In this document: piece by piece, positions 13,184 through 18,270 of the stretch
Layout: each line of letters opens with the position of its first letter
How positions within the stretch are numbered: the first letter of the stretch is position 1
From: Parafrankia elaeagni
GTDB taxonomy: Bacteria > Actinomycetota > Actinomycetes > Frankiales > Frankiaceae
Assembly (NCBI RefSeq): GCF_000374165.1
Contig: NZ_KB893783.1
Location: 1-64,000 of the forward strand
DNA length: 64,000 nt
Reading direction: 5' to 3'
Program-made: the position numbers and the translations under genes
The notes under the pieces: generated by a model
Database searches by the model: none
Told to the model about the DNA's origin: nothing
The model's input: the letters and a program-made list of their open reading frames with translations, nothing else

Positions 13184-16100
13184 TCAGGCGGGGTGGGCCG
13201 CCTCGAACGCCTCGACGATCTCCCGGGGGATACGGCCGCGGTCGCCCACGTCATAGCCGTTGCGCCGGGCCCAGACCCGGATTCTGCCCGCGTCGCGGCC
13301 GGCTGGGCCGCTGCCCGGGCCGCCCCCCTCCGCCGGCACGGGCGGCGCCAGGGCGGCGGGCCCGGCTGACACCGGGCCGCCGGTAGCGGCCCGGATCTGC
13401 TCCGGCGGGCGCGTGGCGGTGAGTGCGTTCGCACCCGGCAGACAGGTGATCGTGACGAGGCTCTCACCGGACGGCGGGTCGTCGCGGAGCTGGTCGACCA
13501 CCGTCCGGGCCAGGTCGGTGAGGTGCTCGTGATGGGTCAGCAGGATGATCTGCCAGCGCGGGGCGAACCCGGCCAGCACCCGCAGCGCCGCCTGTGCCCG
13601 CTCGTCGTCGAAGGTCATCAGGATGTCGTCCAGGACGACCGGCAGCGTCGGTTCCCCACGGTCCACCCGCTCCTGCTGGAGCTGGTCGATGGCTGCCAGG
13701 CGCAGGGCCAGGAAGACCTGGTCGGCCGTCCCCTCGGACAGCTCGCCCGACCCGAGTTCCTGCTCGTCCGCGCGGACGACCCGCAGCGTCCGGGCGCCGT
13801 CCCCGCGGTCGACGGCCCGCAGCGCCACATACCGGCTGCCGGTGAGCCGTTCGAGCAGACGCCCGGCGTCCGCGAGCAGCGGGGAGGCGTGGCGGCGCTC
13901 GTACGCCTCCAGCTCGCGGCCGAGGGTCTCGTGCTGGATCCGGGCGATGAGGTAGCGCTCGGCTGTCTCGGCGACCAGGGCCAGTGACTCCTGGGCCCGG
14001 GCGTGCAGCTCCCCGGCGCTCGCGCCGCCCTCTAGGTCGCGCAGGTGTTTCTCGACCGTGCCGACCGACGTCCAGGCGTCCTTGTCGGCGGCGGCCGCCC
14101 GCTCGTGGTCGTCGCGGGCGCGGGCGAGGTCCGCCTCGAGATCGGCGTCCGTCCGTCCCGCCAGCTCGGAGACAAGATCGTCGGGCTCGTCGGCGGGCGC
14201 CGTGGCGCGCAGGAGGACATCGACGGAGGCCAGCTCGACGGCGACGGCGGCGAGGTCACGGTGGCGGGCCGCCGCGTCGGCGAGGGTCTGGCCCGGCGCC
14301 AGCACCACCTGGGCGCCCAGCGCGTCGAGCCGGGCCGCGGCGTCGTCACGAGTCCGGGCGGCCTCGTCGGCGCGGGTGGCGAGCCCGGTGACGGCCTGGT
14401 CGATCTCGGCGGCCCGGGCCTGGTCCTGCGCGCTGGCCCGGAACCGGGAGCTGAGCTGGTCGACCAGATCGGCCAGTGCTTCGGCCCCGCGGTCCGGATG
14501 CAGGCCCTGGCGGGCGGCGAGGCCGAGGACCTCGGCGGCGAACTCGTCGTAGCGCCCGGCGGCCTGCGCGGAGTCACGCAGCGCCCGCTGCGCCTGGTCG
14601 TGCAGGGCGGAGGCCTCGGCGAGCACAGCGCGCCGCTCCGTCCAGCCCCGCGGGTCGGTGACATCGGCCAGCCCGGCCCGCCGGACGAGGACATGCCACT
14701 CCTCCTCGGCACCGCGCAGCTCCTCCCGGCGTTTCTCCCGGTCCCGCTCCTTCTCCTCGACGACCCGCCCGAGGTGCAGCGCGGCGGCCCGCTGTTCCCG
14801 GGCCCGGTCGTCCTCCGCGAGCGCGGCGGCCGCCGCCCCGAGCAGGCTGTCCAGGTCGGCGGCGGGCGCCGGCGCGCCGACCTGGGCGAGCGCCTCGGCG
14901 AGCGCGACCGCCTGGGCCCGTGCCTGGTCACCCAGCCCGGCGAGGCGCTCCTGCGCGGCGAGCAGGTCGGCGTGCGCACGGTGGGCCTCCTCCGCCGCCT
15001 GCTGGACGTCGTCGACGTCCTCCCGGTCGGGAACGGCGAGGGCGGCGCCGGCCCAGAGACTTGCCCAGCCGGCACGCGTCTCCTCGGCCCGGTCGGCCGC
15101 CGTGGCGGTCGCGGTCAGCGCGGCCGCCACCCGGTCGCGGGCGACGGCGGCCTCCCGCCGCAGCTGCCCCCGCCGGGCGGCGAGGTCCGCGTGCCGGATG
15201 AGCTGGTCGGCGACCTCGTCAGCCCGGGCGATCCCCGCGGCGAGCACCGGGAGGAGCTCCCGGGCCCGTTGCGGTGCCGGCACTGCGCCCCCTGCGCCCC
15301 CCGTGCCCCCTGCGTCGGCCGCGTCCGCCCCCGCGTCGGCCGCGGCGACGAGAAGCTCCCAGAGCTGGGCGCGGACGGTGCGAGCCTGCTCCAGCGTGGC
15401 CTGGTCCGGCAGGTCCTGCTGGTCGGCCTCGGCCAGCCGGCTCTCGGCGAGGTCGAGGCCGCGGGTCGCCTCGGCCAGCTCCTCCTCGCGCCGGGCCAGT
15501 TCCGCCTCGGCCGCGTCGAGCCGCCTGCCCGCCGCGCGCACCTCGGTCCGGCTCGGCAGCACCGGCGGCGCGCCGTCCAGGTCGCGGGCGCCCGCCCGGC
15601 GCAGCGCCTCCCGCCGGCTTCGGACCGCCTCGGCCGCCGCGCCGACGGCCTCCCTGGTCAGCACGGATGCAGACCCTTCGCTGCCGACCGCGGCCAGGAC
15701 GGCCTTGAGCTGCCCGACGGCGGCCGGATCCGGCCCGGGAGCGAGGTCGGTGGCCGCGCCGTGGCTGCGGCGAGCGGCGGTCAGCGCCTCCTCGGCGCGG
15801 CGCAGCTCGTCGGAGACATCGGTGATCGTGGCGGCGAGCGCGTCGATCTGGGCGGCGACGTCCCGCGGGACATGCAGATGATCGAGAAGCCCGGCGGTGT
15901 CCCGTTCGTCGTTCGGCCCGACCAGCCCCAGCAGGAGCGAGCGGGCCTGGTCCGACTGGCGGCCCGCCCCGTCGGCCAGCTCGCGGGCCCGGCGGTCGTC
16001 GTCCAGCCGGGTGAGGCAGACACGGTCGAGCCGGGTGATGGCGTCGCCGTCGGCGAGGACCCGCCCGTCGACCGTCAACGTGGCGCGGGTGGCCTCGCGG

Positions 16101-17038
16101 TCGTGCAGCTCGGCGGTCAGCCGGTCCAGTTCCGCCGTCGCCGCTGTCATCTCCCCGGTGACCGTGTCGAAGGCCGCCGCCTGGTCGGCGGTGAGCGCGG
16201 GGCCGGCGGCCAGCAGCGTGGCCTGCCGCTCGCGCAGTGCCCTGAGAGTCCGCACGTGCGCGGCGGCACGGACCCGCTGTTCCAGGCGGTCGCGGTGCGC
16301 GGCGGCGGTCCGGGCCGCTCTGGCGGCCGCCTCGGCGTCGCGGTGGCGCAGCGCCAGCTCGCGGCGGGCATCCTCCACATGCGCCGCGCGGGTCATCGAC
16401 GACGCGGCCTGCTCGGCGCGCTGCTCGTAGTCCGCCAGCGCGGTGCGTACCTTCACCGTCCGGCTGTTGCGGTGCGCCTTGTACAGGGCGTCCATCTCGG
16501 CACCGAGTGCGTCGAGCAGACCGCGGACGGCCCGGCCGCTGCGCGCGGTGAAGACGAGCTCGGCGAGATCGCCGCTGCCCTCGAAGACACGGGCGCCGCC
16601 GTCACGCAGCTCGGCGTGGGAGAGCCCGAACGCCCGGCGCCACCGGCGGCGCTCCTCCGCGCCGCCGGTGCCCCAGGGGGAGGTGAACGCCGCGCCGTCC
16701 GCGACCGTCTGCAGGCCGGCGTTGCGCCGCCTGATCTCAAGCCGTGCCGTCCCGGCTGCCGTTCCGGCCGCCGCCCCCGCTGACCCCGCCGGCTTCGTCA
16801 GCCCTGCCGGGGGAGCCTCGGGCAGTTCGAGATCGGCGGTCAGGCTCAGCGCGCCCAGGCCGTAGTGGAAGCTCTGGCGGGTGCCGCGGAAGGTCCACAG
16901 CAGGTCGGACAGAGCCTCGAGGGTGGTGGACTTGCCGGCCTCGTTCGCGCCGACGACCAGCGTCAGCCCGGGGCCGAACTCGATCCGCCGGTCCTCGAAC
17001 GCGCCGTACCGTTCCAGGCCCAGGGCACGGATGCGCAT
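13184..17038 (-). CDS. SbcC/Rad50-like (YhaN-type) ATPase with C-terminal Lsr2-like DNA-binding tail
   Basis: 1284 residues. The N-terminal ABC half has Walker A GANEAGKST (about 30-38). A very long Ala/Arg/Glu-rich coiled coil follows, with no CxxC zinc hook visible. The C-terminal ABC half has the signature LSEGTADQVF at about 1100, Walker B LPVVLDDILMTFDD near 1133 and the H-loop LLTHHEHL near 1168. After a Pro/Gly/Ala linker, residues 1252-1284 read IRVWARRNGYDV then DRGRIPREIVEAF, closely matching the C-terminal DNA-binding domain of Lsr2 with its RGR clamp. The start overlaps the SbcD-like stop (ATGA), so the pair should form a DNA end-processing complex. The tail may steer it to AT-rich DNA. 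Confidence 0.88.
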   Translation of the reverse strand: MRIRALGLERYGAFEDRRIEFGPGLTLVVGANEAGKSTTLEALSDLLWTFRGTRQSFHYGLGALSLTADLELPEAPPAGLTKPAGSAGAAAGTAAGTARLEIRRRNAGLQTVADGAAFTSPWGTGGAEERRRWRRAFGLSHAELRDGGARVFEGSGDLAELVFTARSGRAVRGLLDALGAEMDALYKAHRNSRTVKVRTALADYEQRAEQAASSMTRAAHVEDARRELALRHRDAEAAARAARTAAAHRDRLEQRVRAAAHVRTLRALRERQATLLAAGPALTADQAAAFDTVTGEMTAATAELDRLTAELHDREATRATLTVDGRVLADGDAITRLDRVCLTRLDDDRRARELADGAGRQSDQARSLLLGLVGPNDERDTAGLLDHLHVPRDVAAQIDALAATITDVSDELRRAEEALTAARRSHGAATDLAPGPDPAAVGQLKAVLAAVGSEGSASVLTREAVGAAAEAVRSRREALRRAGARDLDGAPPVLPSRTEVRAAGRRLDAAEAELARREEELAEATRGLDLAESRLAEADQQDLPDQATLEQARTVRAQLWELLVAAADAGADAADAGGTGGAGGAVPAPQRARELLPVLAAGIARADEVADQLIRHADLAARRGQLRREAAVARDRVAAALTATATAADRAEETRAGWASLWAGAALAVPDREDVDDVQQAAEEAHRAHADLLAAQERLAGLGDQARAQAVALAEALAQVGAPAPAADLDSLLGAAAAALAEDDRAREQRAAALHLGRVVEEKERDREKRREELRGAEEEWHVLVRRAGLADVTDPRGWTERRAVLAEASALHDQAQRALRDSAQAAGRYDEFAAEVLGLAARQGLHPDRGAEALADLVDQLSSRFRASAQDQARAAEIDQAVTGLATRADEAARTRDDAAARLDALGAQVVLAPGQTLADAAARHRDLAAVAVELASVDVLLRATAPADEPDDLVSELAGRTDADLEADLARARDDHERAAAADKDAWTSVGTVEKHLRDLEGGASAGELHARAQESLALVAETAERYLIARIQHETLGRELEAYERRHASPLLADAGRLLERLTGSRYVALRAVDRGDGARTLRVVRADEQELGSGELSEGTADQVFLALRLAAIDQLQQERVDRGEPTLPVVLDDILMTFDDERAQAALRVLAGFAPRWQIILLTHHEHLTDLARTVVDQLRDDPPSGESLVTITCLPGANALTATRPPEQIRAATGGPVSAGPAALAPPVPAEGGGPGSGPAGRDAGRIRVWARRNGYDVGDRGRIPREIVEAFEAAHPA

Positions 17039-18270
17039 CAGGCGTCACCTCCGGCGAGCCTGGCGAGCAGGCCGGCGCCGGCCCGCTGGACGAGGTCGGC
17101 GCGCGTACCGGGATCACCGAGGTCAAGCAGGCCGGCGCCGCGCAGCAGCCGTCCGACCTCACGGTCGAGCGGGGTGATCCACGGCGTGAGCTGGTCGGGC
17201 CGGGCGCCGAGTGCCTCGGTGGCAGCCCGCACCGCGGCGACCAGCTCCGGGTCGACGCCGCCGCCGGACGCCGGGTCGGTCACCCGGGCGGCGATCTTCT
17301 CCAGGCAGACCTGCATGCCGTCGGCGATGGTCCGCAGCTCCTCGCGAAGCCGCTCGGCGTCGGCGAGCTCGGCGGCGGCCCGCGACGCCCCGGTGAGCAC
17401 CACCCGCGCGACCACGGGGCGGTCACCGGCGGACGCCCGCGCCGCCCGCAGCTCCCGCCCCAGCAGCGCCAGCACGTCGTCGAGGCTGTCCGACCCAGTG
17501 ACGTCCACGGCGATCCGCTCCCAGCGCGCGACGTCGCAGGGAACATGCTCGACCTGGGCCGGCCCGCCCCCGGTGATCTCGACGACGAGTGCGCCCTTCG
17601 GGCCGGTCTCCCGCGGCGTGCGGCCCTGCAGGTTCCCGCTGAACGCGGCGACGTGCTCGCCGGCCGCGACCACGCGGTGCGTGTGGACGTGCCCGAGCGC
17701 GAAATAGTCGTAGCCGGTACCGGTGAGGTCGTCTGTCGAGCACGGAGCGTAGTTGTCGTGGCCCTCGGCCCCGTCGGCCGCCGTGTGCAGCAGGCCGACG
17801 TTGACCAGGCCCGGCCGGGCGTCCGGATAGCGGCGGACCAGGTTGTCGTGCACGGCGACGGTCGGGTAGCTCTGGCCGTGCACGGCCAGGCCGAGGTCGG
17901 CCATCTCATGGGTGCCCGGCTCGTCGGAGGGGAACACGGTGACGTTCGGTGGGAGCGTCAGAGTGCGGGTGATCTCGCTCTCGGCGTCGTGGTTGCCGGA
18001 GATCATGAACACCGGGACCTCCGCGTCCCGCAGCCGGCCCATCTGCTCGACGAAGAACCGACCGGTCGCGTAGTCACGCCAGGTGCCGTCGTAGATGTCG
18101 CCGGCGAGCAGCAGCGCGTCCGCCCGCCGGGCGAGCGTCAGATCCACCAGGTTGGCCAGCGCGCGCCGGGTCGCCTGCCGGAGCAGGTGGGCGAGGTCGC
18201 TGTCGCCGAGCCGGGTCAGCCCGCGCAGCGGGCTGTCGAGATGGATGTCAGCGGCGTGAACGAGGCGCAT
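17038..18270 (-). CDS. sbcD: SbcD/Mre11-like DNA repair exonuclease
   Basis: 410-residue calcineurin-like metallophosphoesterase. Metal and catalytic motifs appear in order: HAADIHLDSP (about 5-14), LLAGDIYDG (about 55), ISGNHDAES (about 96), and later LLHT and GHVHTH. Mre11-type proteins use two Mn ions for endo/exonuclease cleavage at DNA ends. The C-terminal region (about 270-410) is the capping and coiled-coil-contact part. It overlaps the ATPase gene by ATGA, indicating translational coupling. The 257-bp gap upstream has repeated CGAACGTC and CGGACATC octamers but no convincing LexA box. Confidence 0.9.
   Translation of the reverse strand: MRLVHAADIHLDSPLRGLTRLGDSDLAHLLRQATRRALANLVDLTLARRADALLLAGDIYDGTWRDYATGRFFVEQMGRLRDAEVPVFMISGNHDAESEITRTLTLPPNVTVFPSDEPGTHEMADLGLAVHGQSYPTVAVHDNLVRRYPDARPGLVNVGLLHTAADGAEGHDNYAPCSTDDLTGTGYDYFALGHVHTHRVVAAGEHVAAFSGNLQGRTPRETGPKGALVVEITGGGPAQVEHVPCDVARWERIAVDVTGSDSLDDVLALLGRELRAARASAGDRPVVARVVLTGASRAAAELADAERLREELRTIADGMQVCLEKIAARVTDPASGGGVDPELVAAVRAATEALGARPDQLTPWITPLDREVGRLLRGAGLLDLGDPGTRADLVQRAGAGLLARLAGGDA

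Follow-up and report, generated by a model that had tools for sequence, protein, structure and literature searches.

An Lsr2-type DNA-binding domain at the end of the ATPase of a YhaO-YhaN (SbcEF)-like gene pair in Parafrankia elaeagni

Introduction

Why would an ATPase of the Mre11-Rad50 kind end in the DNA-reading domain of a gene silencer? The question is raised by a gene in the window, as the analysed stretch of 64,000 nucleotides of Parafrankia elaeagni DNA is called here, which has a GC content of ~73 % (mean of the composition table). A first-pass annotation of the sequence described the gene product as an SbcC/Rad50-like ATPase fused to the C-terminal DNA-binding domain of Lsr2, and suggested that it recognises, or defends against, AT-rich foreign DNA. 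Lsr2 is a known silencer of Actinobacteria that coats AT-rich DNA. Both H-NS and Lsr2 read the minor groove via an AT-hook-like Q/RGR motif, and in the C-terminal domain of Lsr2 it is the RGR motif that recognises the AT-rich minor groove (PMC6936261). No description of an Lsr2 fusion to YhaN, SbcC or Rad50 was found in the open literature, that is, outside subscription papers and preprints, and the available part of a review on horizontally acquired homologues of silencers makes no mention of an enzyme fusion (PMC7074111).

The yhaO-yhaN gene pair

The gene in question (13184..17038, minus strand) is one open frame encoding a YhaN-type protein of 1284 aa, the translation of which ends in ...GRIRVWARRNGYDVGDRGRIPREIVEAFEAAHPA*. 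Residues 1-218 form the N-terminal ATPase lobe (PF13514 AAA_27, E 8.7e-36). A long middle part, probably coiled coil, separates it from the C-terminal ATPase lobe, which displays an ABC signature (LSEGTADQ at residue 1100), a Walker B motif (LPVVLDDIL at 1132) and an H-loop (LLTHH at 1166). The protein contains two cysteines in total and no CxxC, and a zinc hook is therefore absent. An SbcC/Rad50-like ATPase was correctly recognised in the first-pass annotation, but it is of the YhaN type and not a standard SbcC. The protein scores far under the NCBIfam Rad50 cut-offs, and no SbcC model is listed among its NCBIfam matches. The YhaN of Parafrankia colletiae, also a member of the Frankiaceae, is 94 % identical.

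The nuclease partner that had been expected for this ATPase is encoded next to it. The yhaO-type gene (17038..18270, minus strand) encodes an Mre11/SbcD-like metallophosphoesterase of 410 aa (PF00149, E 9.9e-12); the two genes share one base, which ends yhaO and begins yhaN. YhaO carries the motifs DxH, GDxxD, GNHD and GHxH, and its relatives in the PDB are SbcD/Mre11 chains. With 58.9 bits it remains under the cut-off of the SbcD model TIGR00619 (77.65). Nuclease and ABC ATPase layout and metallophosphoesterase motifs are thus shared with SbcCD/Mre11-Rad50, while the low SbcD and Rad50 scores and the lack of a CxxC set the pair apart.

An AAA_27-type N-terminal lobe and a C-terminal lobe with ABC signature and Walker B in one long protein, adjoined by an Mre11-like nuclease gene with catalytic motifs, characterise the YhaO-YhaN systems of Firmicutes and other bacteria, which likewise show no CxxC hook. 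Judged by these features the gene pair is a two-gene Mre11-Rad50-like machine of this type, with a predicted ATP-controlled nuclease activity. We take YhaO-YhaN to be the system named SbcEF. One published source implicates SbcEF in double-strand-break repair and describes its role as poorly characterised (PMC6452273). The window YhaN differs from these systems in the Lsr2 domain that follows its C-terminal lobe.

Identity and structure of the C-terminal domain

The last residues of YhaN (1251-1284 and the stop codon; 13184..13288, minus strand) were confirmed as an Lsr2 DNA-binding domain by an HMM search, in which PF23359 (Lsr2_DNA-bd) matched residues 1247-1281 with 51.1 bits and E 8e-14, against a cut-off of 26.9 bits. 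A search of all PDB sequences with the 38-residue tail (E up to 0.1) returned three matches, 6qkp, 6qkq and 2kng, all of them Lsr2 DNA-binding domains (E 2.4e-8 to 2.6e-8). The RGR triplet, the AT-hook-like minor-groove element of Lsr2, is present at residues 1267-1269 (13232..13240, minus strand). The tail is preceded by the linker that had been noticed before as Pro/Gly-rich, a Pro/Gly/Ala-rich segment of 72 residues (1179-1250; 13289..13504, minus strand). The Lsr2 dimerisation domain PF11774 was not found in YhaN at E 0.1; the tail is therefore a domain of Lsr2 and not an Lsr2 protein, and in contrast to the silencer it forms the end of an enzyme.

An AlphaFold2 model was computed with 10 aligned relatives as input (pTM 0.58, mean pLDDT 75.8). 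The C-terminal ATPase lobe is predicted confidently and the linker blocks have a pLDDT of 32-58. The tail itself consists of two helices flanking the RGR loop (block pLDDT 80-89), at protein residues 1246-1259 and 1272-1281 (model residues 210-223 and 236-245). By homology to Lsr2, the YhaN tail is predicted to bind AT-rich DNA. It shares 65 % identity with the Lsr2 of the same genome (over 31 residues), 77-94 % with two other tails of the genus, and 52-61 % with the tails of G022, G017, G048 and Arthrobacter echini. The tail may have originated as a copy of the host's own Lsr2, although it is too short for these identities to settle the matter.

Conservation of the tail

The order was sampled with 36 genomes, comprising the genus of the window (seven genomes, G000-G006), a genus designated g5 that is probably Frankia (13 genomes), a genus g2 (five genomes) and others. 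Tailed YhaN proteins are encoded in 10 of the 36: all seven members of the genus, G017 and G048 of g5, and G022 of g2. Inspection of the C-termini revealed the tail on every YhaN found in the order (10/10) and in the genus (7/7). Outside the order, the YhaN of A. echini (Micrococcales, two strains), with 35 % identity to the window protein, is tailed as well. RGR is retained in all 11 tails, those of the order and that of A. echini. As a positive control, the Lsr2-domain profile recovered 13 of 13 loci, namely the 10 of the order, two A. echini records and a relic in G047 (see below).

When the seven genus members are compared, the tail shows a dN/dS of 0.20, much as the C-terminal ATPase lobe does (0.21), and the linker reaches 0.72. 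With all 10 carriers included, the values are 0.38 (tail), 0.25 (lobe) and 0.81 (linker). Constraint on the tail thus matches that on the catalytic lobe inside the genus and is weaker across the full set of carriers. Since every YhaN of the order is tailed and the tail is under purifying selection in the genus, the fusion is neither chance nor the product of a frameshift. It is real and is maintained by purifying selection in the genus. A frameshift, which the first-pass annotation had named as a possible undoing of the fusion, or an assembly artefact is ruled out by this selection and by the tails of the 10 order proteins and A. echini.

In G001, yhaN (L039:7050-11053, minus strand) is split into two overlapping frames of 842 and 524 aa, due to a frameshift or an assembly error.

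YhaN proteins without a tail

Beyond the order and A. echini, the survey of homologues did not extend the tail. The YhaN of Pseudonocardia parietis, which falls in the same subclade as the tailed set in both YhaO and YhaN trees, has no tail, nor is one encoded in any frame just downstream. In a class sample of 394 genomes, with six candidates scored per genome, five further YhaN proteins (G103, G139, G194, G202, G114) carry none; this check covered strong ATPase-lobe matches, leaving weaker ATPase-only ones (e.g. G057, G355, G341, G064, G222) outside. A phylum sample of 396 genomes yielded YhaN at E 1e-20 or better in 22, and the 21 besides the window's own are without a tail (C-termini of 17 + 4). 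In total 26 untailed actinobacterial YhaN proteins were checked, plus P. parietis. The Lsr2-domain profile found no match in any frame of 28 loci, namely those of the 26 and of P. parietis together with an additional stretch of G406.

Three trees (17, 18 and 16 rows; long branches flagged) left the split between A. echini, P. parietis and the Frankiaceae without clear order. In each tree two changes are needed to explain the distribution of the tail, which may have been gained once or more than once.

An origin of tailed YhaN from a mobile element or phage was considered and rejected on the strength of the plasmid matches listed and a two-pattern search of viral contigs. None of 222 matching plasmid records covers 80 % of the window protein, and the tail region is never reached among the 25 of these matches listed. 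A search of viral contigs with two peptide patterns revealed no YhaN relative. Searched by itself, the tail matched 329 plasmid and 544 phage records; among those listed (60 each) nearly all are annotated as Lsr2 or Lsr2-like, some being unannotated or hypothetical, and these matches are therefore uninformative on fusions.

Genomic setting

In all seven members of the genus yhaO-yhaN is flanked by a prephenate dehydratase/PhzF pair and, at the opposite end, by a short-chain dehydrogenase gene. An acyl-CoA-ligase-like gene lies beyond in six of seven, sometimes with other genes between; in G004 this region falls outside the fetched stretch. The neighbourhood is thus inherited and conserved in the genus, and with the same metabolic neighbours in seven genomes the locus is unlike a defence island. 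A PADLOC search gave no fit to a defence-system model beyond ATPase-lobe similarity among the matches listed (25 of 41; best LmuB, E 3.3e-11), and neither a model match over most of the length nor a defence setting, as expected of a known anti-phage system, was found.

The setting differs outside the genus. A Gp49-like/HTH pair resembling type II toxin-antitoxin systems comes after the operon in G017. In A. echini it is located between IS110 and Mutator transposase genes, with a separate full-length lsr2 gene (L006:9576-9968, plus strand) less than 1 kb downstream of the tailed yhaN. Furthermore, YhaON is patchy in the other genera of the family; in g5, intact copies occur in 2 of 13 genomes, besides one relic tail.

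The relic occurs in G047, where a methyltransferase frame (L088:4237-5211, minus strand) ends in a YhaN-type linker and Lsr2 tail that is 63 % identical to the linker and tail of the G017 YhaN over 93 positions. No YhaN ATPase was found in G047, and the stretch is apparently what remains of a lost or recombined yhaN.

Canonical SbcD in the order

SbcD (TIGR00619) scored above cut-off in 33 of the 36 order genomes. None was found above cut-off in G000 (the window genome), G002 and G006, all of which are draft assemblies carrying tailed YhaON. SbcD is thus present in 26 of 26 genomes without YhaON and in 7 of 10 with it (Fisher p 0.017, relatedness of the genomes uncorrected), which hints that YhaON can take the place of SbcCD. 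The three genomes are related, and the contrast may therefore represent one or two events. YhaON is dispensable for repair in the family, given that 26 of the 36 genomes do without it and that SbcD is present in seven of its 10 carriers.

Lsr2 DNA-binding domains on other proteins

Scans of 10 loci with long frames showed that five encode ordinary Lsr2 read together with an upstream frame, that four combine the domain with another, and that in one (L093) the Lsr2 DNA-binding domain alone was found. The four comprise an ERCC4-type nuclease with a C-terminal Lsr2 DNA-binding domain (L051:1464-2438, plus strand, G008), a REase_MTES_1575 protein (L091), an SMP-30-like protein (L053) and the G047 relic (L088). 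In a PF23359 search 88 of 108 genomes gave a match, and from the places listed 40 loci were retrieved, picked for long frames or low scores and not at random. According to a home-made profile 14 of these are without the Lsr2 dimerisation domain, two being frames of less than 75 aa and L170 perhaps retaining the domain in degenerate form. Scans of ten among the 14 identified a SUKH protein (L162), a DUF6461 protein (L164) and a D12 adenine methyltransferase (L172), and no other family above cut-off in the remaining seven. In L164 the Lsr2 domain is N-terminal, and L166 looks alike.

Some carriers look like defence enzymes. The D12 methyltransferase, with its C-terminal Lsr2 DNA-binding domain, belongs to a type II restriction-modification-like pair in G089 (L196:4772-6972). 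Its gene lies beside, and divergent from, a gene matching PADLOC REase_II (E 3.6e-26) and, in Pfam, DUF7687. The patch that holds them has a GC content of 53-60 % (64 % at the edge), against 66-75 % in the surroundings. In G185 the REase_MTES_1575 domain with Lsr2 tail (L091:4034-5551, minus strand) is encoded behind a helicase frame (L197:7178-12670, minus strand) that resembles the PADLOC proteins PDC-S37, Mko and Hhe; the helicase and REase parts are separated by a frame break. The last ~37 positions of the PADLOC MTase_II model PDLC03328 match Lsr2 tails; by eye, no tail was seen in the C-termini of four whole-protein matches to this model in 296 genomes. The domain is found on several unrelated proteins, and is thus a portable module. 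Like YhaN, the ERCC4 nuclease, the REase_MTES_1575 protein and the D12 methyltransferase combine a small C-terminal DNA-binding domain with the absence of a PF11774 match. They differ in having unrelated catalytic partners and, for some, in a defence-like locus, unlike yhaON of the genus.

Several other PF23359 places deserve mention in their own right. L165:1-774 (plus strand, G086) is a frame cut by a contig end in which the Lsr2 domain appears, by eye, to lie inside the zinc-ribbon-like part of a large serine recombinase; no Pfam recombinase match was obtained. In five small proteins (L158, L160, L167, L186, L187) an N-terminal segment of the form MQLTIDSxDPLxxVLxVVGxLYGVxL replaces the Lsr2 dimerisation domain and is followed by the Lsr2 DNA-binding domain; they perhaps constitute an alternative Lsr2 family. 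The third PF23359 place of the window genome (G000:C98, L198:8883-9149, plus strand) is a short lsr2-like remnant, in which tryptophan is replaced by cysteine, RGR by QGR, and the N-terminal part is missing; it adjoins genes that, by eye, resemble type I restriction-modification.

Discussion

What the tail does for YhaN may be approached through the architecture of the complex. YhaO would be the nuclease, and YhaN the ABC ATPase that dimerises over DNA and controls it. Positioned on a flexible linker behind the C-terminal ATPase lobe, the Lsr2 domain would be near the DNA-holding head, and a YhaN dimer would bring two RGR loops close to this head. These loops most likely enter the AT-rich minor groove and may hold or load the complex there, or bias its residence. 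In a GC-rich genome, candidate targets would be AT-rich islands, Lsr2-coated tracts and foreign DNA. We infer the dimer geometry, the binding to AT-rich DNA, the tethering and the repair role. Our preference, with moderate confidence, is for an SbcEF-like complex tethered to AT-rich DNA, the main task of which in the genus is the processing of DNA ends or hairpins with a bias to AT-rich regions. This is favoured for the genus because the locus is conserved and YhaO is the sole SbcD-like protein found in three genomes. Outside the genus, use in defence or in plasmid clearing is possible.

The defence role proposed in the first-pass annotation, spelled out here as the tail picking out AT-rich incoming phage or plasmid DNA for degradation by YhaO, now appears rather unlikely for this pair. 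The indirect part of its case stands, in that the same type of tail occurs on the D12 methyltransferase, encoded in a lower-GC patch beside a type II REase gene, and on the REase_MTES_1575 domain behind a broken helicase frame. The patchy occurrence of YhaON in g5, the Gp49/HTH pair in G017 and the IS110 and Mutator transposases in A. echini also agree with it; indeed, such a setting outside the genus fits an accessory or defence role equally well and counts against end or hairpin processing. Against defence are the metabolic neighbourhood in all seven genus members, the PADLOC fit limited to the ATPase lobe among the 25 of 41 matches listed, the plasmid matches that miss the tail (25 of 222 listed) and never reach 80 % coverage, the viral contigs without a relative by two peptide patterns, and the three of 10 carriers in which no canonical SbcD was found, as if YhaON performed housekeeping work at DNA ends.

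Alternatively, the tail might anchor the repair complex to the Lsr2-bound part of the nucleoid and thereby give it access to breaks or hairpins in silenced, AT-rich regions, without discrimination between self and foreign DNA. With the Lsr2 reading loop and no dimerisation domain, the tail could bind the same DNA as Lsr2 without forming a silencing filament, and the tailed operon of A. echini has lsr2 as a neighbour less than 1 kb away. This neighbour may be due to chance in a transposase-rich stretch, however, and such an anchor seems improbable. It is hardly credible that the tail has lost DNA reading and serves YhaN-YhaO contact, stability or another purpose. Such a use would be in line with fusions on proteins that have no obvious DNA role (SMP-30-like, SUKH, DUF6461), but RGR is kept in 11 of 11 tails and selection on the tail within the genus is as strong as on the ATPase lobe. 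The biased processing of ends or hairpins in the genus remains the preferred reading, with two further observations against it: P. parietis is untailed in the same subclade, and constraint on the tail falls below that on the lobe when all 10 carriers are considered.

Seen from the family of carriers, it could be speculated, tentatively and with the balance tilting against it, that the Lsr2 domain is a portable address label in Actinobacteria that steers cutting, modifying and end-processing enzymes to AT-rich DNA. Silencing, restriction and repair would then converge on one foreign-looking fraction of the genome, with tailed YhaO-YhaN as the repair or degradation arm. The fusion, together with Lsr2 readers on restriction enzymes of other actinobacteria, suggests that the cue used for silencing may also guide the cutting and repair of DNA. 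An Lsr2 reader on a repair machine could explain how repair gains access to silenced DNA, or how bacteria of high GC content might recognise AT-rich arrivals with no need for methylation or spacers.
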